Shown here piece by piece: positions 5,959 to 23,288 of a DNA stretch of 23,449 nt (the stretch's first letter is position 1; each line of letters starts with the position of its first letter). The stretch is from the NCBI GenBank assembly GCA_002825515.1, contig PJET01000041.1, positions 1 through 23,449 of the forward strand, read 5' to 3'. The DNA comes from Candidatus Thorarchaeota archaeon MP11T_1 (GTDB lineage: Archaea > Asgardarchaeota > Thorarchaeia > Thorarchaeales > Thorarchaeaceae). The position numbers were made by a program, and so were the translations under genes. Below the pieces are notes generated by a model. That model saw only the letters and a program-made list of their open reading frames with translations. It searched no databases and was not told the origin of the DNA.

Positions 5959-6954
5959 CTATTTCTTCAAATCATATCTATGGGCGGCAGAGTCCATGAG
6001 TTTCTGGATTAACTGGTCATAGGTATAACCAGACTTCATTGCCATATATGGATAGAAGGATATGTCTTGGTTATCAGGATCGAAGTCCATTCCTGGTAAC
6101 GGATTGATTTCCAAGAAGTAAAGTTGTTCGTCTTCATCCATTCTATAATCGATTCGTGCAAAATCTGGAACTTCGAGTAATTCACAAATTTCAATGGATG
6201 TCTTCTCGATTTTTCTTTTCAGGTCTTTTCGGATTTTTGCAGGACATACGTAATGGTCAAGCCCTTCATAGATTGTCTTGGCTTTCTGTCCATAAACTCC
6301 AGCGATCTCTGAAGGAAACTTCGAGAAATCTATCTCCAATATGGCAAGAACTTCAGGTTTGGGACCTAGACTACCCAAGACACCCACACTGAACTCGCGT
6401 CCATGAATGAATTGTTCTGCTAGAATTGGTTGCTTATACTCCTTCAGCATTGATCCTAGTTTCTTGACCAGATGCTTCCTTTCAGAAACAACATTATCCT
6501 CATTGATACCCACTGAAGAACCTTCTTCATTTGGCTTTAGGATGACCGGATATTTGAATTCAAGTTTGTTGACTTGCCTGACGCTGGACAGAATGTTAAA
6601 CTGTGGAGTCAATATATTGTGGAATGATAAGAACTTCTTAGTCCAGCCCTTATTCAAACAAACTGCTGTAGAGAGAACATTTGCGCCAACATAGGGAATG
6701 CCAAGCATCTCCAAGATAGCAGGAATGTGAGATTCTCGGCTCTCTCCACGAACACCCTCAGCTCGATTGAAGACAAGATCTGGCTTGACTTTCTTTAATG
6801 TGTCAAGAATGTTCTCATCTGCCTCGATGAAAACGTAGTCATGACCTCCTGATTCTATTCCATGCTTAATCATCTCAATAGTGTGAGGTGGGTCATATTC
6901 TACTTCGAACTCTGATTCATCTTTTCGCGTGTTTAATACAAGTGCAACTTTCAT
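5959..6954 (-). CDS. D-alanine-D-alanine-ligase-like ATP-grasp enzyme
   Basis: 331 residues, the usual length of Ddl. ATP-grasp hallmarks are present in order: VILKPNEEGSSVGI (137-150, nucleotide Lys and Gly/Ser loop), AEQFIHGREFSVGVL (179-193), an omega-loop-like AGVYGQKAKTIYEG (218-231), and the metal ligands Asp269, Glu282 and Asn284 in ARIDYR...YFLEINPLPGM with the same spacing as in E. coli DdlB. Such enzymes join an acyl phosphate to an amine using ATP. Archaea of this kind are not expected to make peptidoglycan, and the omega loop differs from bacterial Ddl, so the product is probably another dipeptide or amide. A TATA element lies ~35 bases upstream. The gene follows the PP-loop gene (75 bases) and precedes the GNAT gene. 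Confidence 0.85.
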   Translation of the reverse strand: MKVALVLNTRKDESEFEVEYDPPHTIEMIKHGIESGGHDYVFIEADENILDTLKKVKPDLVFNRAEGVRGESRESHIPAILEMLGIPYVGANVLSTAVCLNKGWTKKFLSFHNILTPQFNILSSVRQVNKLEFKYPVILKPNEEGSSVGINEDNVVSERKHLVKKLGSMLKEYKQPILAEQFIHGREFSVGVLGSLGPKPEVLAILEIDFSKFPSEIAGVYGQKAKTIYEGLDHYVCPAKIRKDLKRKIEKTSIEICELLEVPDFARIDYRMDEDEQLYFLEINPLPGMDFDPDNQDISFYPYMAMKSGYTYDQLIQKLMDSAAHRYDLKK

Positions 6955-7029: not shown

Positions 7030-8397
7030 CTATAGCTCAAAAGAATCAATCTCTTCCTTGAAAATTGACATAACTCTATCCTTCAGATCAGCAGGGATAC
7101 TGATAGGATCATACAAGGTGATGAATTTCTTGAAGAGTTCATCCTCTCGCGCCTGTGCTTCCTCATACAGTTTAGATGCTTTGAAATCTTCGACCAAATC
7201 GCCTTTTGCATTCTTTTTGACTGCAGAGTAGAATGCGAATAATTGCTCATCCATTGCAGTTTCTGAGAGAAGGTAGGTCAGTGTTGTTTTCCCACCAAAT
7301 AATGTGAAACGTTCTTTGTGCTCCCTGTTGAGCATGTTTTCACGGAATCCTATTTCACTAGGATCAATCCCACCACCGGCACAGAGGAGATACATCTTAG
7401 CACAAATTGTGCAATGGTGACACCACCTATAGTCTCGGCCGGCTTCGGTTTCAGTGAAGCAGCTCATTTGGTATTTCGCTATGTCAGGATATCGATGAGC
7501 AAGAGTTCGTTGTACCATCATATCCATCAAGGGTTCAATCAGACTTCCAGTATCTACAGACCGACCAGAGAACATCTTTGTCATTTGATCAATGTGTACG
7601 GTCCAATTATGTGTCTGGTCCCAACATGGATTCACAAGCCACCCATACTTGTCCATATCTGTTGCAGAAGTAGTCTGTTCGTTTCCAAACAAAATATACT
7701 TCCCTTGAAGTGCATATGCTAGTGGGATACATTCCAATGCATATTCAGTTGATTGAAGTGCCCAACCAAACTCAGAGAACGGAAGACCTAGATAGGGATA
7801 ATCTCGGAGTTTTCCTGTTTCATGTTTTATTATATGAAGGTCCTTATCGAACTCTTTCTTGAACTGTTCAGCTAATGCTGTTTTGTGTTTCTCCTCGTAT
7901 GTCATGCTATGTTCGACAAAGTAGGCCATCTCCGGATCAAGTTCTAATTCTCTAGCAACTGCATATGTGAGAAGACTATCCTTTCCAAAACTCATCCCAA
8001 CGATTGCACGGTAGCCATCCTCTACTGGTTCATTAGATGGGATCTTAATGACAGGGTCTAGGAATCGATATTGCGTGTTAAAGAACCTGCGAACAAATTC
8101 CACTGTGTCTGTTCCGTCGACCTCGGTACATGAGGGGATATCCCGAAAGAAATTCTCTACAAAGTAGGATTCTAAAAGTGGGCGTCCTGAGTGGTAGACA
8201 ATCTCAGGAAGGTCAAAAACTATGGGAAGATGCATTGTTGTTGCGAGTGCAAGATTGTCTACAAGAGCGAGTCTTGTTTGTTCTGGTGTTTTCTCCCAGT
8301 AGTTACTTGGATACGTTACTGGTAGGGCGTCATTTTTGTATTCAACAGCGAACCCGTTTTTGATTGATTTTGAACGAATCTCGAGCATGACAAGCAC
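7030..8397 (-). CDS. PP-loop ATP-pyrophosphatase superfamily protein, possibly MurL-like
   Basis: 455 residues. The PP-loop is GMSFGKDS (134-141), a variant of SGGKDS that binds ATP in enzymes that adenylate a substrate and release pyrophosphate. A cysteine cluster C326-x2-C329-x2-C332-x6-C339 (WCHHCTICAKMYLLC) follows, as in QueC-like and MurL-like proteins, where it may bind zinc. The overall length and the order PP-loop, FGNE motif (237-240), then Cys cluster recall MurL, which epimerises the terminal L-Glu of a muropeptide precursor through ATP. That match is from memory and is tentative. A GTG at 8397 and an ATG at 8388 are both possible starts. I slightly prefer ATG on codon grounds, but neither has a ribosome-binding site. 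The neighbouring Ddl-like gene makes a peptide-like substrate attractive. Confidence 0.6.
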   Translation of the reverse strand: MLVMLEIRSKSIKNGFAVEYKNDALPVTYPSNYWEKTPEQTRLALVDNLALATTMHLPIVFDLPEIVYHSGRPLLESYFVENFFRDIPSCTEVDGTDTVEFVRRFFNTQYRFLDPVIKIPSNEPVEDGYRAIVGMSFGKDSLLTYAVARELELDPEMAYFVEHSMTYEEKHKTALAEQFKKEFDKDLHIIKHETGKLRDYPYLGLPFSEFGWALQSTEYALECIPLAYALQGKYILFGNEQTTSATDMDKYGWLVNPCWDQTHNWTVHIDQMTKMFSGRSVDTGSLIEPLMDMMVQRTLAHRYPDIAKYQMSCFTETEAGRDYRWCHHCTICAKMYLLCAGGGIDPSEIGFRENMLNREHKERFTLFGGKTTLTYLLSETAMDEQLFAFYSAVKKNAKGDLVEDFKASKLYEEAQAREDELFKKFITLYDPISIPADLKDRVMSIFKEEIDSFEL

Positions 8398-14627: not shown

Positions 14628-15284
14628 ATGACTCGCAATCTCGAAGATCTGCATATACACTCCAACTACTCCGATGGAGTTTCTAGTGTTGAAGAGATTA
14701 CTAAACGAGCTGCATTTCTCAAACTCAAGACGATTGCTATTGCTGATCATTTTTGGCCATCATTGGGGTCTCGAAAGGGTGGAATCAATCTCATAGAACA
14801 GAGACGTCATGAAATTGAAACTTGCAGAAACGACTATCCAGAACTGAAGATTCTTGACGTTGCTGAAGTTGACATTCAGTCAAACGGAGTGTTAGCACCT
14901 GTTGCTGGTGGACTTGAGCAGTTTGACCTAATAATAGGGTCATTTCACTGGTTCACTGACTCCACAAGATGGGCATCTGCTCTAGTTCAGGCATTAAGAA
15001 GAAAGGAGTTTCAGATTCTCGGACATTGGGACGGATATCTCTCTTCCTATAGAGAGGAGGACGGGAGAATTGCTGCAGAGGCGCTCGCTGAAGCAGATGT
15101 CGCAATTGAGCTGAACGGCAGATACTCAGTTGAGCATATTGGATTTCTCGAACTAGCCAAAACATATGGGTGCCACTTTACACTTGGAAGTGATTCGCAT
15201 CATGTAAGCACGGTTGGAGATCTTGCCTTCCAAGAGAAACTTGCAACGAGCATGAATCTTGATCTAATGAAGGTCAACCCATAA
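14628..15284 (+). CDS. PHP-domain metal-dependent phosphoesterase
   Basis: 218 residues, a full-length single PHP domain. All motif groups are present: His9-x-His11 with Asp16 (HIHSNYSDG), Asp40-His41 (IADHF), Glu79 (VAEVDI), His106 (GSFHW), His132 and Asp134 (GHWDG), Glu160 and Asn162 (IELNGR), and Asp188-x-His190 (LGSDSHH). These bind a trinuclear metal centre that hydrolyses phosphate monoesters or diesters. Relatives include histidinol phosphatases, nucleoside phosphatases and the PHP part of PolX. The substrate cannot be read from the sequence and no his genes are nearby. A TATA-like TTTAATTT 25-35 bases before the ATG suggests a nearly leaderless transcript. Confidence 0.88.
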   Translation: MTRNLEDLHIHSNYSDGVSSVEEITKRAAFLKLKTIAIADHFWPSLGSRKGGINLIEQRRHEIETCRNDYPELKILDVAEVDIQSNGVLAPVAGGLEQFDLIIGSFHWFTDSTRWASALVQALRRKEFQILGHWDGYLSSYREEDGRIAAEALAEADVAIELNGRYSVEHIGFLELAKTYGCHFTLGSDSHHVSTVGDLAFQEKLATSMNLDLMKVNP

Positions 15285-15367
15285 GGCGAATGAGGTTGGG
15301 AAATTGATAAATCCAGAAGCCTTTTCATTTGCGAAGTACAGAGTCAAATTATTGGAGATGATTAATC

Positions 15368-15784
15368 ATGGGTGACGAACTCGTTTTTCCATCGGATGAA
15401 TGGATAGAGATGTACATGGACCTCTTGAACAAGAATGACCGATACGAGGACGCAGCAAAGACTTGGGAGGGAGATTTCGTCTTTGAGATCACTGCGGACG
15501 GAGAGGTTGTGACGGAAGCAATTAGGTTCTATATGGACCTTTGGCATGGTAAGTGTCGGGCTGCAAGAATGGCGGGTCCAGATGACACTGCAGAGTTTAC
15601 ATATTCGGGACCCTACCAGAACTGGAGAGCTCTGTTCGATGGCAAGATTGACCCAATCAAAGGAATAATGGCCCGCAAGTTCAAGCTGGATGGCGATATG
15701 GGTAAGGTCATGCGCTATACAAAGGCAGCTCTCGAGCTTGTAGCCACAACAAGACTAGTCCCCACAAAATACCTAGATGAGTAG
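15368..15784 (+). CDS. SCP2 sterol-carrier-like lipid-binding protein
   Basis: 138 residues, the size of a stand-alone SCP2 domain. The pattern matches archaeal SCP2-like proteins: N-terminal FPSDEWIEMYMDLLNKN and AAKTWEGDFVF, a central YMDLWHGKCRAARM strand region, SGPYQNWRALFDGKIDP and MARKFKLDGDMGKVMRYTKAA, the last being the helix that lines the hydrophobic tunnel in the family. Such domains bind lipids or acyl chains in the cytoplasm. A GGAG element about nine bases before the ATG supports the start. The radical SAM gene begins 46 bases downstream, so the two are probably co-transcribed. Whether the protein supplies a lipid to the neighbouring modification enzymes is unknown. Confidence 0.75.
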   Translation: MGDELVFPSDEWIEMYMDLLNKNDRYEDAAKTWEGDFVFEITADGEVVTEAIRFYMDLWHGKCRAARMAGPDDTAEFTYSGPYQNWRALFDGKIDPIKGIMARKFKLDGDMGKVMRYTKAALELVATTRLVPTKYLDE

Positions 15785-15830
15785 CAATAAGACCTAATCA
15801 ATCTCAGATACAAACAGGAGCCACACAAAG

Positions 15831-16880
15831 ATGTGGTGGAAAAAGAGTGGTTCAAAGAAAAGATCAGGACCTGGTTGCGCAGTCTGGGAGATCACTCTTG
15901 CCTGCAATTTGAATTGTATTCATTGTGGCTCCGCAGCAGGGAAAGCGCGTTCAGATGAATTGTCCACAGAGGAAGCACTTCAACTGTGCGACGATCTCAA
16001 AAGAATCGGATGTAAAGGAGTAGCACTCATGGGCGGCGAACCCTTGCTCAGACATGATTGGGTCACCATTTCGGAGAAGGTTCATGATTTGGACATGGAG
16101 CTCTCAATAATAACAAATGGATGGCTTGGTCAGAATGATGTCATCACTCAGAAAATAGTTGATCTTTCACCAGAGTGTGTGACTGTGAGTCTAGATGGAG
16201 GAGAATCATCCATCCATGATATGATTAGGGGTGTTGAAGGGTCTTTTGAACGTGCAACGAAAGCTATTGACAGATATGCAGGTCTTGGACTACCAACCTC
16301 CGTAATAACCACCGTACATAAGTTGAATCTTAAGGAACTAACAAAGATACGAGATTTCTTGATGGGAAAGGGGGTAGCATGGCAAATTCAAATGGCCACG
16401 CCACATGGAAGACTAAAGCGCGAGCATGTGTTATCCAAAGATGATTTCTACTCAGTCGCATTGTTCATTGCAGCAACTAGAAAATTGTATTCTAAGGAAC
16501 TTATGGTGGCAGGGGCTCATGATATGGGATATTTCTCCACAATTCTTGATGAGTTGCAGGTCCGGTCATGGCAAGGTTGTCAAGCTGGAATTGGTACACT
16601 AGGAATACAGAGCAATGGGAATATCACTGGATGCCTAGCTCTGCCTGAGCAGTTCATTGAGGGGAATGTAAGGGAACGGTCTCTGAGTGAGATATGGTAC
16701 GATGATGAGTCATTCAAGTACTCACGTTACGTCAAAATGTCAGATATGAAAGCGCACTGCGCAAGTTGTGAATTCAGAGGAATCTGTAGGGGAGGGTGTT
16801 CTGCAGTTTCTGTAACTGTGGGGAAAGGACTCCATCAAGATCCATTCTGTGTGCGTCATATTGAACAATCGATGCAGTAA
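15831..16880 (+). CDS. Radical SAM enzyme with SPASM domain (peptide/protein-modifying type)
   Basis: 349 residues. The SAM cluster is Cys25-x3-Cys29-x2-Cys32 (CNLNCIHC), with GGEP at 68-71 for SAM binding and a TIM-barrel body. The C-terminus has a complete seven-cysteine SPASM set for two auxiliary clusters: Cys250, then GNITG-Cys268, then Cys310-x2-Cys313-x5-Cys319-x3-Cys323, and Cys340. SPASM enzymes such as PqqE, AlbA and anSME modify peptides or proteins, while others act on heme (AhbC/NirJ). There are no other heme genes here. A GGAG ribosome-binding site lies ten bases before the ATG. The next genes encode two small paralogous membrane proteins and a methyltransferase, which makes a peptide substrate plausible. 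T6 at 16913-16918 may separate the transcripts. Confidence 0.88.
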   Translation: MWWKKSGSKKRSGPGCAVWEITLACNLNCIHCGSAAGKARSDELSTEEALQLCDDLKRIGCKGVALMGGEPLLRHDWVTISEKVHDLDMELSIITNGWLGQNDVITQKIVDLSPECVTVSLDGGESSIHDMIRGVEGSFERATKAIDRYAGLGLPTSVITTVHKLNLKELTKIRDFLMGKGVAWQIQMATPHGRLKREHVLSKDDFYSVALFIAATRKLYSKELMVAGAHDMGYFSTILDELQVRSWQGCQAGIGTLGIQSNGNITGCLALPEQFIEGNVRERSLSEIWYDDESFKYSRYVKMSDMKAHCASCEFRGICRGGCSAVSVTVGKGLHQDPFCVRHIEQSMQ

Positions 16881-16932
16881 TCTCAAGCAGGAATCAAAGA
16901 GCTTATTGCTGATTTTTTCTAATTATTTATGA

Positions 16933-17325
16933 GTGAAGGAGTTGAGATGGAGTGGAAGAGGAACAATTGGATTTGCATATCTCAAATTCCGCCATTTTCT
17001 ACCCACTATTATGAAGATGGTGGCAGACGAATTTATTCAAATTCAAACTCCTACAAGAACGCAGTTCGCAGAGATTGAAGTTCTTGGCAAACGCATGGGC
17101 TTAGATAGAAAGGAAATCCATGCGGCTACTAATTTTCCCATCAACAACGAATATTCACGAAAACGTAGATTGACTCCATTATCAGTTTTTATAATGGTTT
17201 TAGTCATCATAATCATAGCTTTTGTAATCCTTGTGCTCGCGGGGTATTTTCCTAGACCTCCGGAAGTTTATAGTGCGGGTCCGCGCTATGGTAGCATAAA
17301 ACCTAAAGATTTCATATTGGACTGA
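16933..17325 (+). CDS. Small single-pass membrane protein with Y-x-S-I-x-PKDF tail, copy 1
   Basis: 130 residues. A soluble helical N-terminal part (~1-75) with QFAEIEVLGKRMGLDRKEI is followed by a basic patch SRKRR, one membrane helix (~83-105) and a 25-residue Pro-rich tail that should face outside. The tail has the motif YGSIKPKDF at residues 119-127. The following gene encodes a clear paralog with the same layout and the same motif. I do not recognise the family. The start GTG 16933 is uncertain: TTG 16942 in the same frame has a better GGAG position, and the match to the paralog begins only around residue 12. A TATA-like TTATTTAT lies just upstream. Paralogy strongly supports this frame. 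The function is unknown, with substrate or partner of the SPASM enzyme as one idea. Confidence 0.7.
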   Translation: MKELRWSGRGTIGFAYLKFRHFLPTIMKMVADEFIQIQTPTRTQFAEIEVLGKRMGLDRKEIHAATNFPINNEYSRKRRLTPLSVFIMVLVIIIIAFVILVLAGYFPRPPEVYSAGPRYGSIKPKDFILD

Positions 17326-17345
17326 TTCACTCGGGGTGACAAGAC

Positions 17346-17750
17346 TTGAATGAAATAAACATCCAGATGATCTGGGTTGGCGTAAAACGACTGGAACGCC
17401 ACCTTCCCAATAGGCTTTACGATATAATGTGGCGGCTATCAGGCAAGGTTGGACCTAGCAGACAGCAGCTAATCAGGATTGAATTGCTAGGAGAAGATGT
17501 TGGGCTTAGTAAATCAGAAGTCTTTGCTGCACTAGATCCACGTTTGAGCACTCCAGGTATCGAGAGTAAATTCAGGCTTTCTCTCTTTATGTCCATAATT
17601 GTCATGATTGTGATTGCAATATTAAGTGTCCTTGTTACTTGGTTTGTTGTAGATCCTGAAAGTTTTCCTGTGCCAACATACATTCCAGGCTCACTTTATG
17701 CAACCATATCTCCAAAGGATTTCAGTGCCTTTGGCTCAGCAGCAGTGTAG
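17346..17750 (+). CDS. Small single-pass membrane protein with Y-x-T-I-x-PKDF tail, copy 2
   Basis: 134 residues, paralog of the preceding gene. Aligned segments include RQQLIRIELLGEDVGLSKSEV (in copy 1 TQFAEIEVLGKRMGLDRKEI), a Lys/Arg-bearing border KFR, a membrane helix (~78-101) and the tail motif YATISPKDF at 118-126. This copy carries a longer small-residue end (SAFGSAAV). TTG 17346 is preceded by GGGGTGA seven bases upstream, a convincing ribosome-binding site. An internal ATG lies at 17367. Twenty bases separate it from copy 1 and four from the methyltransferase gene, so the three form an operon. The N-terminal domain, about 75 residues, should be cytoplasmic. The function is unknown. 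Confidence 0.75.
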   Translation: MNEINIQMIWVGVKRLERHLPNRLYDIMWRLSGKVGPSRQQLIRIELLGEDVGLSKSEVFAALDPRLSTPGIESKFRLSLFMSIIVMIVIAILSVLVTWFVVDPESFPVPTYIPGSLYATISPKDFSAFGSAAV

Positions 17751-17753
17751 TTT

Positions 17754-19058
17754 GTGGTGAATGAATTATTGAAACTCAATATTGGTTGTGGTCTCGAATA
17801 CAAGAAGGGTTATGTCAATATTGATGCGTTCAATAGTTCAATTGCAGACCAAATAATGTCAGCTCTAGATCTTGAGTTTGATGATGATTCATTTACTAGG
17901 GTTGAATGTGTACAAGTACTCGAACACCTTGGAGCTGCAAAGTCAATCTATGCCTTGGCAGAAGTCTACCGTGTTCTCAAGCGGGATGGGATTTTTGTCA
18001 TAGAAACTCCAGACTTATTGAATTCATTCAAAATCTTTCTCAAAGGAAATGAGGAACAAAGGAAACTTGTAATGAACTGGATATACGGATTGGACATGCC
18101 AGGCATGTCACACAAGTATGGTTTTCCAGAGGAACTCTTAGAGAGGATGTTACAGGAAACAGGATTTGTTGATATTGATATCAAACGGATTAATACCAAA
18201 TCAGCACATCCCTCGCTTCAAGCTGTTTGCAAGAAACCATTTTCAAGATGGCATCAATTTTTTGCACGTTTTAGGAAGAAACTAGTACAAGCGGACTTGG
18301 TGGACCTACAAAATCAGGTTGATGTGATTGATAAAGAAATCCTACTACAGGATCTATTTACTGCTGTTCTAAAGACTAATTCCGCAAAAAAGGTTCTAGT
18401 AATAACTTCAACAAGAAGTCCCAAGATTGGCCAGTTATTCATTGAGGAATGTGTTGCAGAAAATCTAGTATCTGAGGAGTATGCTCAAGTACATCTCAGA
18501 GTACTAGAGAAACTAGTTCTTCTAGAATTTCCAAAAATAATGACGTATCTATTTCGGGAAATGCCAGTGATACCAGGAAGTCAATCTGAAACATTTGAAA
18601 CTGTCAAATCGATGTGTGCAAAGTCGGTCAAGAAAATCCTCTCTGGAGAAACAAAAGTCACAGACGAATTAAGAAATGCATCAAAAAAGATGGATATCGA
18701 AGTCCAGACCGTTATTTTCTCCAAGACTGTGTTGAATTCCATCTCTCAGAATCAACTCGCATTAGGGGCTAAAGCATTTGCGCAAAATCAGTTTACTGAG
18801 GCGATGATTCGTTATGAGAATGCAGTCCGATTTAATCGCGACAATATATTGGCGTACTGGAATCTTGCTCGATTACACATTTTGAATAATATGCAGGAAA
18901 AAGCTAGACAGCGTTACGGTGTAACAAAAAGTCTGGTTTCATTGATGCATCCCAAGGTTCAGAAAACTCTGCTTAGAAGGATAGAAACTGAAATTGAACA
19001 AACAATGAAGGGAACTCGGAAAAACATTGACCAACCAGTGTTGTCACTATTGAGTTGA
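17754..19058 (+). CDS. Class I SAM-dependent methyltransferase fused to a TPR-containing C-terminal region
   Basis: 434 residues. Residues ~1-160 are a Rossmann methyltransferase: motif I is LNIGCGLEYKKGYVNIDAF, followed by VECVQVLEHL and AEVYRVLKRDGIFVIETPD. Residues ~170-340 are a helical, unfamiliar region. Near 341-400 a TPR-like pair reads AFAQNQFTEAMIRYENAVRFNRDN and AYWNLARLHILNNMQEKARQ. The combination suggests a methyltransferase that docks on a protein partner. GTG 17754 starts four bases after copy 2's stop codon. GTG 17757 is equally possible. Tight coupling to the two small membrane proteins makes them or their products candidate substrates or partners. The enzyme class is certain. 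What is methylated is not known. Confidence 0.85.
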   Translation: MVNELLKLNIGCGLEYKKGYVNIDAFNSSIADQIMSALDLEFDDDSFTRVECVQVLEHLGAAKSIYALAEVYRVLKRDGIFVIETPDLLNSFKIFLKGNEEQRKLVMNWIYGLDMPGMSHKYGFPEELLERMLQETGFVDIDIKRINTKSAHPSLQAVCKKPFSRWHQFFARFRKKLVQADLVDLQNQVDVIDKEILLQDLFTAVLKTNSAKKVLVITSTRSPKIGQLFIEECVAENLVSEEYAQVHLRVLEKLVLLEFPKIMTYLFREMPVIPGSQSETFETVKSMCAKSVKKILSGETKVTDELRNASKKMDIEVQTVIFSKTVLNSISQNQLALGAKAFAQNQFTEAMIRYENAVRFNRDNILAYWNLARLHILNNMQEKARQRYGVTKSLVSLMHPKVQKTLLRRIETEIEQTMKGTRKNIDQPVLSLLS

Positions 19059-19071
19059 TTCAGGACGGAAA

Positions 19072-19078
19072 CTTATAT
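19072..19078 (+). promoter_or_regulatory. TATA box of the nitronate-monooxygenase-like gene
   Basis: CTTATAT lies about 27 bases before the ATG at 19103, so the predicted start site is almost at the start codon and the mRNA would be leaderless. It marks the beginning of a new transcription unit after the methyltransferase gene. Confidence 0.5.
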
Positions 19079-19102
19079 CGCACGTTGTGAGTTTGAGAAT
19101 CT

Positions 19103-20194
19103 ATGACTCTCCTTCATACTGAACTCTGCGATATAATTGGAATCAAACACCCAATACTTCAAGGAGGCATGGGACCGTATAAGACTGAGGCATTAGCAAT
19201 TGCAGTGGCTAACGCTGGTGCTTTAGGCGTAATTAGTTGCATTGGTATGGCTGCGACACTAATTCCAGAAGCAGCTCCAATTGATGCACAGAGATTATTT
19301 GGATCAGACCCTCCAGCCATTATCTTACAAAAATCGATTGAGAAAGTCACAAAGGAGACTCGTTCATCGGGCGGAGTTTTTGGAGTAAATGTACCGGTAG
19401 CCGCTGAATTCATTTTGGCATCAAAGATGTTTGTTGAACAGACAATTGAGTCATGTAAGGCGGATTCAGACACGGAACGTTCATTGAGAGTAGTTATCAC
19501 ATCAGCAGGAAACCCAAAGCCATGGTCAGTCCTTAAAGATGAGGGGTTCATTTGGATACATGTGGTACCTTCTGTGTATCACGCAAATAAAGCCGAAACG
19601 GCAGGTGCTGACATTATTGTAGCATCTGGACACGAGGGAGGAGCGCATGTTTCTTGGGATCCAGTCCATTCAATGGTGCTCGTTCCAGCAGTTGCAAAGG
19701 CTGTGAAGACTCCAGTAGTTGGAGCAGGCGGCTTTTGTGATGGAGCAACACTTGCTGCAGCTCTATGCATGGGAGCTGTTGGAATCCAAATGGGTACTCG
19801 TTTCATAGCAACCAAGGAGAGTGATTTTGAGCCAATGTGGAAACAGGCGATATTAAAGAGAGAGGAGCGTCAGACTCTCGTTGGACGAGGTCTCTTTGGA
19901 CCAATGCGATTCTTGCGTAACAAGAGAGCAGAAGAGATTGTGGAGCAAACATTAGAGGATTTGCCAAACTTCTACTTAGGTGAGCCTCTAGACTCAAATG
20001 AGATGATTCTGAAACTTGAACAGACAGGATTCGATGACCTTCTTGATGCGAAAGAGGATACTGCTCTAATGTTTGGGGGAGAAGTATCAGGTCGAATTCA
20101 AGACCTACCCACTACAGCCGAGCTCATCGGGAACATAGTTAGAGAAGCTTCGGAGGTGCTTAGTAGAGCACCAAAATTCCTGGTTGGCGAATAA
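19103..20194 (+). CDS. Nitronate monooxygenase / 2-nitropropane dioxygenase-like flavoprotein
   Basis: 363 residues, the usual length. It is an FMN-binding TIM barrel: N-terminal IGIKHPILQGGMGP, then NAGALGVISC, the central DIIVASGHEGGAHVS (catalytic region), and the phosphate-binding VVGAGGFCDGATLAAALCMGAVGIQMGTRF. In characterised relatives these enzymes oxidise nitronates, and the fold is shared with FabK enoyl reductases, which cannot be excluded. There is no ribosome-binding site but the promoter position favours a leaderless message from this ATG. It precedes the iron alcohol dehydrogenase gene by 70 bases, so co-transcription is possible but not required. Confidence 0.85.
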   Translation: MTLLHTELCDIIGIKHPILQGGMGPYKTEALAIAVANAGALGVISCIGMAATLIPEAAPIDAQRLFGSDPPAIILQKSIEKVTKETRSSGGVFGVNVPVAAEFILASKMFVEQTIESCKADSDTERSLRVVITSAGNPKPWSVLKDEGFIWIHVVPSVYHANKAETAGADIIVASGHEGGAHVSWDPVHSMVLVPAVAKAVKTPVVGAGGFCDGATLAAALCMGAVGIQMGTRFIATKESDFEPMWKQAILKREERQTLVGRGLFGPMRFLRNKRAEEIVEQTLEDLPNFYLGEPLDSNEMILKLEQTGFDDLLDAKEDTALMFGGEVSGRIQDLPTTAELIGNIVREASEVLSRAPKFLVGE

Positions 20195-20264
20195 AAGAAG
20201 TCAGTGCAAGGAAATAAAGGGGCGAGATTCCTTGATATGATAGCATATTATGCTCTGAGGAGAG

Positions 20265-21452
20265 ATGGGAATGGTCTGGTGGTTTTATGTTCCTAACATC
20301 ACGTTTGGGGAAGATGCTCTGAGTGAGCTTGAAACTATTCAAGGAAAGAAAGCATTCATCGTTACGGACAAAGTAATCAATAGCCTTGGCCTGGCTGAGA
20401 AAGTCTGTCGAATTCTGACAGAGAGGCAATGGGAGGCGGCGATCTGGGATGGTGTGGAGTCAGACCCAAAAGTTTCCACAGTCAAATCAGCCGCAGAAGG
20501 TATCAAGATGTTTGGTGCGGACTGGATTATTGCTGTGGGTGGAGGAAGTGTCATGGATACTGCTAAAGCTGCATGGATATTGTATGAGAAACCTGATGTT
20601 GAACTCCATGCGTTGACACCATTTGATGTGCTTGGCCTTCGGACGAAGGCAAAGCTTGCATGCATACCAACAACTACTGGTACTGGTTCAGAGGCTACAA
20701 AAGCAATCGTCATTCGAGATGATGAAACTGGTAGAAAATTTGCGACTATCAATCCCGAATTGACACCCGATATTGCGATTCTTGATCCTGAATTTGTGGT
20801 AGGGTTGCCAAAGAATCTCACAGCTTTTACGGGTATGGATGCATTGACACATGCAGTGGAGGGATATGTTTCTGTTTGGAAGAATGACTTCTCGGATGGT
20901 TGTTCACTTCAAGCAGTGAAGATGATTTTCGAGTGGCTCCCTAAGTCTGTTGATAATCTAGCAGATTTAGAGAGTAGGGAAAAAATGCTAATCGCAGCAT
21001 GTCTTGCAGGGATGTCATTTGGAAATTCACAAGCTGCACTTGCTCACTCTCTCGGTCATAGCATGGGCTCGGTACTTCGAACTCATCATGGAATGTCTGT
21101 AGGAATGGCACTACCATACACTATTGAGTTCAATTGTAGAGGTGAAGAGAACGAGGCGGCTGCAAAACTATACACAGAGCTAGCCAGATTGATTGGGATT
21201 ACAGGGAAAAAACCTGAAACTGTAGCTCTGAAATTTGCAGGAGCTATCAGAGAATTGATGACGAAGATTGGTAATCCACAGAGTTTCAAGGAAGCCAAAA
21301 TAAAGAAGAAAGACTTCAATGCAGGACTAGAGAACATGGTTGAATTTGCCATGATGGATACAAGCTTGACAATGAATCCGCGAAACATCGACAGTGCAGA
21401 GATTCGGAAGATATACAGATACATGTATGATGGAACAATTATCGATTTCTAG
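20265..21452 (+). CDS. Iron-dependent (group III) alcohol dehydrogenase
   Basis: 395 residues. It reduces aldehydes or oxidises alcohols with NAD(P)H and an active-site Fe2+. The nucleotide-binding motif is GGGSVMDTAKA (~residues 90-100). The four metal ligands are all present with the expected spacing: Asp192 and His196 in GMDALTHAVEGY, His261 in ALAHSLGH, and His275 in RTHHG. The start is set by GAGGAGAG before the ATG at 20265, with an in-frame ATG at 20271 as an alternative. The aldehyde:ferredoxin oxidoreductase gene follows 15 bases later, so the pair probably interconverts an alcohol, aldehyde and carboxylate with ferredoxin as electron carrier. The substrate chain length is not visible. 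Confidence 0.92.
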   Translation: MGMVWWFYVPNITFGEDALSELETIQGKKAFIVTDKVINSLGLAEKVCRILTERQWEAAIWDGVESDPKVSTVKSAAEGIKMFGADWIIAVGGGSVMDTAKAAWILYEKPDVELHALTPFDVLGLRTKAKLACIPTTTGTGSEATKAIVIRDDETGRKFATINPELTPDIAILDPEFVVGLPKNLTAFTGMDALTHAVEGYVSVWKNDFSDGCSLQAVKMIFEWLPKSVDNLADLESREKMLIAACLAGMSFGNSQAALAHSLGHSMGSVLRTHHGMSVGMALPYTIEFNCRGEENEAAAKLYTELARLIGITGKKPETVALKFAGAIRELMTKIGNPQSFKEAKIKKKDFNAGLENMVEFAMMDTSLTMNPRNIDSAEIRKIYRYMYDGTIIDF

Positions 21453-21467
21453 GGAATGGTGTGAGAG

Positions 21468-23288
21468 ATGGGTGGTTATCGCGGGAAAATACTCAGAGTT
21501 GACCTAAATGCTCGTTCGACATCTGTCACGTCAATCGATGATACAATCTTGAGAGAATTCATTGGAGGAGCTGGATGGGGTGCTCGTTTACTCTATGAAA
21601 TGATTGACAAAGACACGGACCCACTTAGCCCGGAGAATCCATTATTGTATCTTACAGGTCCATTATGTGGAACAATGGCACCCACCGGTAGTAAGTCAAC
21701 GTTCTGCTCGAGGTCTCCAAAGACGGGGCTCTTTGGATATAGCACCGTTGGGGGACACCTGGGTGCAGATCTGAAATTTGCAGGTTATGATGGAATCATC
21801 TTCAGCGGAGCTGCAAAGGAGCCATCATATCTCCTTGTTGACAATTCGGATGTTGAAATTAGAAACGCCAAACATTTGTGGGGCATGGATACAATACAAG
21901 TATGGGAGGAGTTGAAGAAAGAAACTGGTTTCAAGAATGCAGGCATCGCTAGAATTGGTATTGCGGGTGAGAATCTTGTAAAGTATGCAAGTATCATTGT
22001 GGATCATCACAGAGCTGCTGGAAGAACCGGCCAAGGCGCAGTTATGGGATCCAAGAAGCTAAAAGCAATAGTGATCAATGGAACTGATCGTAAAGTGCCT
22101 GTTGCGGATGATGATGGTCTTAGAGAATATGCTAGTGCACTTAATGAAGATAAGAAAGAAGACCCTACATTCCGGATGTACTCTGACCTTGGAACAGCAG
22201 GCTTTACAGATATGGCTAGCATGATGTGGGGGTCATTGCCCGCTGGATACTACACGGTTCCAGATTTTGACACATACAATCTAAGTGGCACAACTGTCAG
22301 AGAAACTATCTTGGTAGGTAAATCAGCATGCTATCGGTGTCCTATTGCTTGCGGAAGAGTGATAGAGATACCAGAGGGCAAGTACAAGATGGATAAGTAT
22401 GCAGGACCTGAGTTAGAGGTGACTGGGACAATGGGCTCACTTATTCTCAACAATAATGTCGAGTCGGTGGCATATGCAAACAAGAAACTCAACATGCTTG
22501 GGATTGATACGATTTCTGGAGGAAATACTATCGCGTTTGCATATTATCTCTTCAAGGAGGGAAAGATAACTGCAGAGGACCTTGATGGGATTACTCCAGA
22601 ATGGGGTGATGTTAATCCCGGAATTGCTTTAGCGGAGAAGATAGCAAAACGGGATGGTATTGGAGACCTGTTGGCTGAAGGATCCTTTGAGTTTGGAGAG
22701 AAGTTTGGAGTTTCTGACTTGGCTGTTCAAGTAAATGGTCTTGAGCTACCGCAACACGACCCACGAGGTTTCTCAGGTCATGCTATTGGCTATGCAACAT
22801 CACCGCGGGGAGCATGTCATATGAGTGCGGACATGTATAATGTTCAGATGGGACAGCCAAACGAAGCGTTCAGGATTGAGAGTGAAGATAGATTCGCTAA
22901 TGAGGCAGAGCTGGTTGCAAGACTCCAGAACTTTCGTGCTCTTACAAACTCCGTAGTGATGTGCAATTTCTATCCTGCAGACGGAGACCAATTATTGAAG
23001 CTACTAAGATTAGTAACTGGATGGGATATGGATATTGAAGAGTTAGTGCAAACAGGTGAGAGAATCTTCACAATGATGAGGTTGCTTAACCTCAAACTTG
23101 GTTATGACACAAAAAATGAGAGGCTTCCCTTGCTTGTGTTGAAACCACTTGAGGGAGCTACAGAGGGTCATGTTCCAGACATAGAAGCGCAATTGCAGAC
23201 ATGGTACAAATACAGAGGCTGGGATAGAAAGACAGGAAGACCACCCAAGGATAAGCTTGAGAAATTAGGTCTGGAAGACCTCACCTGA
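21468..23288 (+). CDS. aor: Tungsten-containing aldehyde:ferredoxin oxidoreductase
   Basis: 606 residues, family length. N-terminal GKILRVDLN and GGAGWGARLL belong to the AOR N domain that binds the bis-pterin tungsten cofactor. The [4Fe-4S] ligands are Cys288-x2-Cys291-x3-Cys295 (CYRCPIAC) and Cys499 (VMCNFYPAD), with numbering close to that of the Pyrococcus furiosus enzyme (288, 291, 295 and 494). The enzyme oxidises aldehydes to acids and reduces ferredoxin, or runs in reverse. The start ATG is preceded by GGTGTGAGAG. It is co-transcribed with the iron alcohol dehydrogenase (15-base gap). The last eight bases overlap the convergent peptidase gene. Which AOR subfamily (AOR, FOR, GAPOR or WOR5) cannot be settled by eye. 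Confidence 0.93.
   Translation: MGGYRGKILRVDLNARSTSVTSIDDTILREFIGGAGWGARLLYEMIDKDTDPLSPENPLLYLTGPLCGTMAPTGSKSTFCSRSPKTGLFGYSTVGGHLGADLKFAGYDGIIFSGAAKEPSYLLVDNSDVEIRNAKHLWGMDTIQVWEELKKETGFKNAGIARIGIAGENLVKYASIIVDHHRAAGRTGQGAVMGSKKLKAIVINGTDRKVPVADDDGLREYASALNEDKKEDPTFRMYSDLGTAGFTDMASMMWGSLPAGYYTVPDFDTYNLSGTTVRETILVGKSACYRCPIACGRVIEIPEGKYKMDKYAGPELEVTGTMGSLILNNNVESVAYANKKLNMLGIDTISGGNTIAFAYYLFKEGKITAEDLDGITPEWGDVNPGIALAEKIAKRDGIGDLLAEGSFEFGEKFGVSDLAVQVNGLELPQHDPRGFSGHAIGYATSPRGACHMSADMYNVQMGQPNEAFRIESEDRFANEAELVARLQNFRALTNSVVMCNFYPADGDQLLKLLRLVTGWDMDIEELVQTGERIFTMMRLLNLKLGYDTKNERLPLLVLKPLEGATEGHVPDIEAQLQTWYKYRGWDRKTGRPPKDKLEKLGLEDLT

Follow-up and report, generated by a model that had tools for sequence, protein, structure and literature searches.

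A four-gene cassette on the forward strand of contig PJET01000041.1 of Candidatus Thorarchaeota archaeon MP11T_1 (assembly GCA_002825515.1; the 23,449 nucleotides analysed, positions 1 to 23,449, are called the window) is conserved widely across Asgard lineages, well beyond the window itself, and probably works like a splicease system. The cassette occupies positions 15831 to 19058 and encodes a radical S-adenosylmethionine (SAM) enzyme with a SPASM domain, two small tail proteins (SM1 and SM2), and a class I methyltransferase followed by a TPR tail. As a whole explanation, a post-translational modification system with splicease-like editing of the protein tails, a methyltransferase and a displayed panel of modified tails is given a probability of roughly 0.55. 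The evidence consists of the linkage of the genes, a tyrosine site kept on different protein scaffolds, the kinship of the enzyme, and the diversification of the single residue preceding the tyrosine.

Conservation of the cassette in Asgard archaea

At E<=1e-65, 56 of 227 Asgard genomes contain the enzyme, in 57 places. Together with the window, 58 places were examined by reading the surrounding DNA. Tail proteins on the same strand lie within 3.2 kb of the enzyme in 52 of the 58, and the methyltransferase-TPR gene is also linked in 52. In all six places without the methyltransferase, the contig ends within 1.1 kb downstream. As for the tail proteins, the tail gene runs off the contig edge in L068, the tail genes are divergent on the opposite strand in L088 and L090, and the contigs of L059, L074 and L099 end within 3 bases of the enzyme match. 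In the genome of L074, another contig (L177) carries the end of the enzyme, two tail genes and the methyltransferase. Six motif matches were judged spurious by eye and excluded (L064 446, L068 1973, L069 7467, L076 2499, L079 1655 and L087 810); their places keep other same-strand tails, except L068. The background of the loose motif on opposite-strand open reading frames (ORFs) is 14/161, a number which includes the real divergent tail genes.

The association can also be seen from the side of the tail proteins. A profile named A1, built from 38 single-pass tail proteins, finds the family in 44 of 227 Asgard genomes, and 41 of these 44 have the enzyme. Among the other three, the enzyme gene is broken in the assembly of G006, and the tail gene lies at a contig end in G147 and G153. 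The co-occurrence gives a Fisher p of 7e-29, which is not an exact probability since the genomes are related. A protein-database search with A1 gave 24 matches, and all four with an organism name are Asgard; this search depends on common five-residue words, recovers Thor-type tails, and is little informative on distant relatives. Thor-type, Loki-like and Heimdall-like are labels of this analysis, and the cassette neighbours are conserved across all these groups. Up to five copies of tail proteins exist per cassette, some of them soluble. Outside Asgard archaea, Thermoplasmatales and Elusimicrobia have enzymes roughly 50% identical to that of the window.

An earlier note, made from the letters of this DNA alone, had described four same-strand genes with gaps of 52, 20 and 3 bases, a radical SAM enzyme with all seven SPASM cysteines, twin single-pass paralogs of about 130 residues, and a methyltransferase with a TPR tail. 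The ORF coordinates agree with this layout, all four ORFs being on the + strand, and the composition holds in the domain matches, alignments and predictions given below. The note had also raised the question whether the small proteins and the methyltransferase accompany the orthologs of the enzyme, and had named orthologs mostly without small proteins as a result that would speak against it. The survey came out the opposite way, and the exceptions are contig ends or opposite-strand genes.

The tail proteins and their tyrosine site

SM1 (130 residues, 16933..17325, +, GTG start) is made up of N-terminal helices, a single membrane helix and a coil tail according to AlphaFold2. The predicted helix comprises residues 82-102 (17176..17238, +), with a predicted local distance difference test score of about 88-97 over most of it. 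The start may lie three codons later, as in P0001, a 94% homolog, and a fold search with SM1 gave no useful structural match (best E 6.2). SM2 (134 residues, 17346..17750, +, TTG start) aligns along SM1, and the two are paralogs, each also matching the orthologs of the other.

Only Y113, G116, Y119 and F127 (SM1 numbering) are invariant in the 38 aligned single-pass tail proteins, whose pairwise identity is 54% in the tail versus 23% in the part before it. The tail motif bounded by the outer two residues is YSAGPRYGSIKPKDF in SM1 (Y113..F127; 17269..17313, +) and YIPGSLYATISPKDF in SM2 (Y112..F126; 17679..17723, +). In these proteins Y119 is followed exclusively by G, S or A, and the position preceding it, X, is free. 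When 132 tail proteins are counted, the residue after the tyrosine is G in 60, S in 55, A in 13, N in 3 and D in 1. The predicted reaction site of SM1, based on the alignment and on the dispersion of X, is R118-Y119-G120 (17284..17292, +), and the likely site of SM2 is L117-Y118-A119. The window combines RYG with LYA, not LYG, and X is Arg in one protein and Leu in the other.

A second Asgard group (L078, L080 and L088-L098) has the same enzyme and methyltransferase beside different tail proteins. In a simple scan of the 33 proteins counted, two or three hydrophobic segments are present in 24, one in five and none in four; the last comprise a fragment in L078 and three short peptides of L089 that are rich in proline. 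The only feature common to both groups is the C-terminal X-Tyr site, which reads XY[GSND][VT][YFH] in the second group. The strongest reason for calling the tyrosine the target is that different scaffolds keep one tyrosine site beside the same enzyme. That the small proteins are substrates modified on the tail is well supported, though indirectly, by these comparisons, and the reaction site is likely X-Tyr-(Gly/Ser/Ala), not PKDF. The earlier note had taken the twin proteins as substrates or anchors, with a shared tail motif, labelled PKDF, as the modified site. The substrate part of this claim has gained from the site common to different scaffolds, whereas PKDF is probably not the modified site: the label suits the window and most Thor-type tails, and the universal feature is the preceding tyrosine.

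More lysine and arginine residues are found before the helix than after it in 84 of 102 single-segment tail proteins. A C-terminal sorting signal of the sortase or archaeosortase substrate type was considered as well. Such signals have the motif first, followed by a C-terminal membrane helix whose end is basic; here the membrane helix precedes the motif, and this type was ruled out.

Several other tail proteins were observed. The three soluble peptides of L089 (5021-5534, 46-65 residues) carry GYP[FY] near the N-terminus and XYGVY at the C-terminus, and YP[FYW]-like motifs recur in many multi-pass tail proteins. An extra tail protein (TYIPGTRYGALSPKDFSE) occurs at L175:3510-3869 in genome G005, the 'Hermod' metagenome-assembled genome (MAG) of L014, on a contig without the enzyme. 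It adjoins an ORF which by our own reading is acyl-CoA dehydrogenase-like, and may be an in-trans substrate.

Diversification of the residue before the tyrosine

Paralogs within one cassette differ at X in all 44 multi-copy cassettes, compared with a mean of 37.8 after shuffling (0 of 2000 shuffles as high). Basic and non-basic X are combined in 33 of the 44 (shuffle mean 24.9, 0/2000). X alone, among 21 positions surrounding the tyrosine, is clearly over-dispersed within cassettes (0/500 shuffles). The result is 0/500 for the single-pass type alone and 6/500 for the other type, and the remaining positions are neutral or under-dispersed, except that +7 is slightly over-dispersed in the single-pass type (13/500). 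After dereplication by enzyme identity at 90, 80 and 70%, leaving 36, 24 and 19 cassettes, X still stands alone (0/1000 each), with the cassettes remaining related by descent even then. The dereplicated test omits the multi-copy cassettes L011 and L055, whose enzyme lies outside the alignment. The counts of X use stricter motif patterns, and a tally by the last motif match picks the wrong site in L003.

In the product of a splicease, the keto-beta-amino residue bears exactly the side chain of X. The pattern of variation hints at a cellular panel of tails that differ in this side chain, for example protease inhibitors or baits. Such variation in a single residue next to the reaction site offers a direct clue to function, and one that can be tested.

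The radical SAM enzyme and its relatives

The enzyme (349 residues, 15831..16880, +) matches Pfam Radical_SAM at 87.5 bits and SPASM at 33.1 bits. The CX3CX2C motif (C25/C29/C32) and the seven SPASM cysteines (C250, 268, 310, 313, 319, 323, 340) expected of radical SAM/SPASM peptide-modifying enzymes are present here and in 53/53 aligned Asgard orthologs. Among the best 25 of 84 NCBIfam models compared, the highest scores belong to TIGR04103 (nif11-class peptide maturase 3; 204 bits) and TIGR03913 (GDL-motif maturase; 200 bits), followed by TIGR04053 (162), AhbD (155) and NirJ2 (154), with AhbC at 133 bits; all are below cut-off. TIGR04103 is presumably the same family as IPR026482, to which PlpX belongs.

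In a tree of 43 hand-chosen rows made by a quick method, the Asgard enzymes fall on a 38-row side together with the Nostoc TIGR04103 protein, the GDL-type enzymes of Azospirillum and Aureibacter, Bacillota enzymes associated with MYGVF repeats, and other bacterial relatives. This side is split from AhbD, AhbC/NirJ1, MftC and TIGR04053-like enzymes with a Shimodaira-Hasegawa-like approximate likelihood ratio test (SH-aLRT) value of 99. The Asgard enzymes stand outside the tight PlpX/GDL clade. A WQ[IVL]Q motif, WQIQ in the window, occurs in 42 of 43 sampled relatives (L102 is without it) and in 0 of 8 outside enzymes, a sample in which three of the eight outside enzymes and some of the 43 relatives are not tree rows.

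Membership in three defined families was rejected. The score for the PlpX family (TIGR04103) is far below cut-off and there is no Nif11 leader; for the GDL-motif maturases (TIGR03913) the score is 200 versus 592 bits, with no DUF1843 match in SM1 or SM2; for the heme enzymes AhbD and AhbC, 155 and 133 bits compare with 500 and 650, and these enzymes stand apart in the tree. As judged from these comparisons, the enzyme appears closest in kind to the splicease group, yet outside the PlpX and GDL families as defined.

Comparison with known systems

Passages of two papers (PMC11002830; PMC10533398) describe PlpX, a member of IPR026482, as excising tyramine from Xaa-Tyr-Gly. According to a passage of the latter, splicing is possible without the leader of a ribosomally synthesized and post-translationally modified peptide (RiPP) and can be placed at protein C-termini (PMC10533398). 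Protease inhibition is reported for spliceotide products in parts of two articles (PMC11117315, PMC10373908), the second of which, a review, speaks in one passage of a broad distribution of splicing across bacteria (PMC10373908).

The X-Tyr-Gly feature of PlpX substrates is present in SM1 and in relaxed form elsewhere. The Asgard enzyme and PlpX are both radical SAM/SPASM enzymes of the same deep group, and WQ[IV]Q is common to the Asgard enzyme and the Nostoc TIGR04103 protein. The two systems also resemble each other in a target with free X, in several sites or substrates per cluster, and in the possible placement at protein C-termini. They differ in that most candidate Asgard substrates are membrane proteins, the tyrosine is followed mainly by G, S or A, a methyltransferase-TPR gene accompanies the enzyme on every contig that continues, X is diversified among paralogs, and no Nif11/NHLP leader match was found on SM1 or SM2 (Pfam and NCBIfam, E<=1).

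Eight plasmid-borne relatives are 31-37% identical to the enzyme, and six of them were opened (all except H5 and H6). The Nostoc enzyme adjoins a Nif11 precursor ending ...IALYGLPPELF, with the site LYG. The Azospirillum enzyme adjoins a DUF1843 peptide with PYG and a second DUF1843 ORF without the site. Three DUF1843 peptides with LYA, MYA and PYG adjoin the Aureibacter enzyme, which is followed by a class I methyltransferase. Among the five non-mycofactocin plasmid loci opened, L018 and L022 have no site among the translated ORFs, and the window methyltransferase had no match in the plasmid search. The GDL/DUF1843 systems resemble the Asgard cassette in the second-best model (TIGR03913), the tandem paralogous XYG/XYA peptides beside the enzyme, and the Aureibacter methyltransferase; unlike the Asgard proteins, GDL peptides are soluble, with an N-terminal site and without a membrane anchor.

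The precursors of the Bacillota loci L127, L128 and L131 contain repeated MYGI or MYGVF. Their enzymes are about 37-41% identical to the Asgard enzyme, and the XYG followed by a hydrophobic or aromatic residue is much like the XYG[VT][YF] tails of one Asgard group. The differences are several sites in one precursor, no anchor noticed, an X that is nearly always Met, and the lack of any methyltransferase-TPR homolog at E<1e-25 within the loci, each about 4 kb long. In one other bacterial group (L113, L114, L117), enzymes lie beside proteins ending in AKYMVV or CYYIIAP or carrying repeated YILPP. At L115, a 48-residue ORF with QYGIR adjoins the enzyme; it was not counted and could be real.

Proposed mechanism and alternative explanations

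The sequences show the linkage, the shared site, the kinship and the dispersion of X, and we infer action of the enzyme on the tails, methylation of the same substrate, and, with the lysine and arginine excess before the helix, an outside position of the tail. The radical SAM/SPASM enzyme would act on the C-terminal tails at X-Tyr-(Gly/Ser/Ala), excise the tyramine part of the tyrosine and rejoin the backbone, as its closest characterised relatives, the spliceases (PlpX), do. The product would be an electrophilic alpha-keto-beta-amino residue bearing the side chain of X. The methyltransferase-TPR protein, the constant second gene, may dock on the substrate, methylate it, or both. The membrane anchor would then probably display the modified tail outside the membrane, and anchors with differing X, several of which most cassettes carry, would form a small panel suited to inhibiting or trapping, covalently, more than one protease or other nucleophilic partner. 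By analogy with the relatives, the odds that the chemistry is tyramine excision are about even. It is rather unlikely that the Asgard cell surface carries anchored alpha-ketoamide tails whose X (basic, aliphatic, aromatic or acidic) makes them P1-matched covalent protease inhibitors or baits, and binding of proteases or other nucleophiles by the panel is likewise to be called unlikely.

Several observations weigh against this explanation. The splicing chemistry rests on distant kinship, given the 31-37% identity to the eight plasmid-borne relatives, and the scores of 204 and 200 bits for TIGR04103 and TIGR03913 compare with cut-offs of 725 and 592. The lower NCBIfam matches include WgkB (135 bits) and StsB (126 bits), makers of cross-links or thioethers as judged in part by the names of the models. 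Of 29 bacterial places inspected by eye, 5 have an adjacent XY[GA] precursor (L112, L121, L127, L128 and L131), 3 have an XY[M/I/Y] variant (L113, L114 and L117), and in 21 no XY precursor is visible within about 1.5 kb. No match to a RiPP recognition element (RRE) or PqqD, as in PlpY, was found among the cassette proteins at E<=1, and a truncated RRE could escape such a search. Loki-like tails are mostly XYS, not XYG, and the invariant upstream Y113 of the Thor and Loki tails has no role in the splicing model. The positive-inside signal (84 of 102 single-segment proteins) is not unanimous. Finally, a tail lying outside would have to be modified by a cytosolic enzyme ahead of its passage through the membrane, a genuine difficulty.

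The tail may be the substrate of another chemistry, in which the conserved tyrosine is cross-linked (for example in a three-residue Y-x-x cyclophane, or by joining Y113 to Y119) and the methyltransferase caps the link. This is possible but not likely. SPASM enzymes as a class often make cross-links, two invariant tyrosines stand six residues apart in the single-pass tails beside the equally invariant G116 and F127, Y-[GSA]-[STV] fits a three-residue ring, and WgkB, a peptide maturase whose name refers to a WgK link, reaches 135 bits. Yet Y113 is absent at that spacing in most multi-pass and soluble tails and in the bacterial XYG precursors. The two top models belong to nif11-class 3 and GDL-associated maturases, and no family known by name to form cyclophanes is among the best 25 of 84. 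A cross-link alone would also leave the diversification of X unexplained.

Quite improbable is a role of the tail proteins solely as membrane anchors or chaperones that keep the complex together, with the tail as a docking motif, and with the radical SAM enzyme and methyltransferase directed at another target or at the synthesis of a small-molecule cofactor. Invariant tail motifs can serve as docking sites, TPR is a common peptide-binding fold, and the tail protein of L175, from a genome with both, is on a contig that lacks the enzyme gene; but a single anchor would suffice, where up to five copies per cassette are seen, some soluble. Docking gives no reason for an X diversified within cassettes while its flanks are conserved, and the partners of several relatives are precursor peptides with an XY[GA] site. 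The scores with AhbD (155 bits) and NirJ2 (154 bits), shared with many SPASM enzymes, and the radical SAM/SPASM scaffold common to AhbC/AhbD/NirJ would allow a heme-biosynthesis enzyme standing by chance beside unrelated genes. This is very improbable indeed: these scores are below those of TIGR04103 and TIGR03913 and far under the 500-bit cut-offs, the sampled AhbD and AhbC/NirJ1-like enzymes lack WQxQ, and they lie on the other side of the branch supported at 99. Clustering with AhbC/AhbD, which the earlier note had raised as an outcome speaking against its proposal, was thus not seen. Moreover, Asgard genome G001 encodes, in addition to the cassette enzyme, a distinct AhbD/TIGR04053-like paralog (L101), and Thor-type, Loki-like and Heimdall-like groups all keep the cassette neighbours.

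If the splicease-like explanation is true, protein-backbone editing reaches the Asgard archaea, the lineage nearest to eukaryotes, extends beyond released peptides to membrane proteins, and is common among Asgard genomes (the 56 of 227 above). The rather unlikely reading with P1-matched tails on the cell surface would, if true, make it an archaeal system of defence or regulation with multiple specificities, built from backbone-edited beta-amino residues. A literature search of titles and abstract beginnings did not find such an archaeal system described, with Scott et al. 2022 (Chem), which may mention archaeal homologs, outside its coverage.

The methyltransferase gene and other features of the window

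The last gene of the cassette (434 residues, 17754..19058, +) encodes a class I methyltransferase domain (residues 1-163), a helical domain and the TPR tail. Methyltransf_11 matches at 32.5 bits, TPR_11 falls just below its cut-off (26.3 versus 26.8), and a fold search returned a generic class I methyltransferase for residues 2-163 only. The closest named relatives of the cassette are Thorarchaeota SMTZ1-45 (enzyme 90%) and a Sifarchaeia MAG (SM1 94%).

In the surroundings (window 14628-23288), a PHP gene and SCP2 lie upstream of the cassette in the close Thorarchaeota relatives L001-L006, and genes for nitronate monooxygenase, Fe-alcohol dehydrogenase and aldehyde ferredoxin oxidoreductase lie downstream. 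These flanking genes look like synteny only, because none has a match in the examined stretches of L007-L014. In L003 (5788-11598), PHP and SCP2 genes are present on both sides of the cassette, which gives the impression of a segment duplication around it. Elsewhere in the window, at 5959-6954 (-) and 7030-8397 (-), a D-Ala-D-Ala-ligase-like ATP-grasp gene adjoins a protein weakly similar to MurL (25.6 bits of 700), here in an archaeon.

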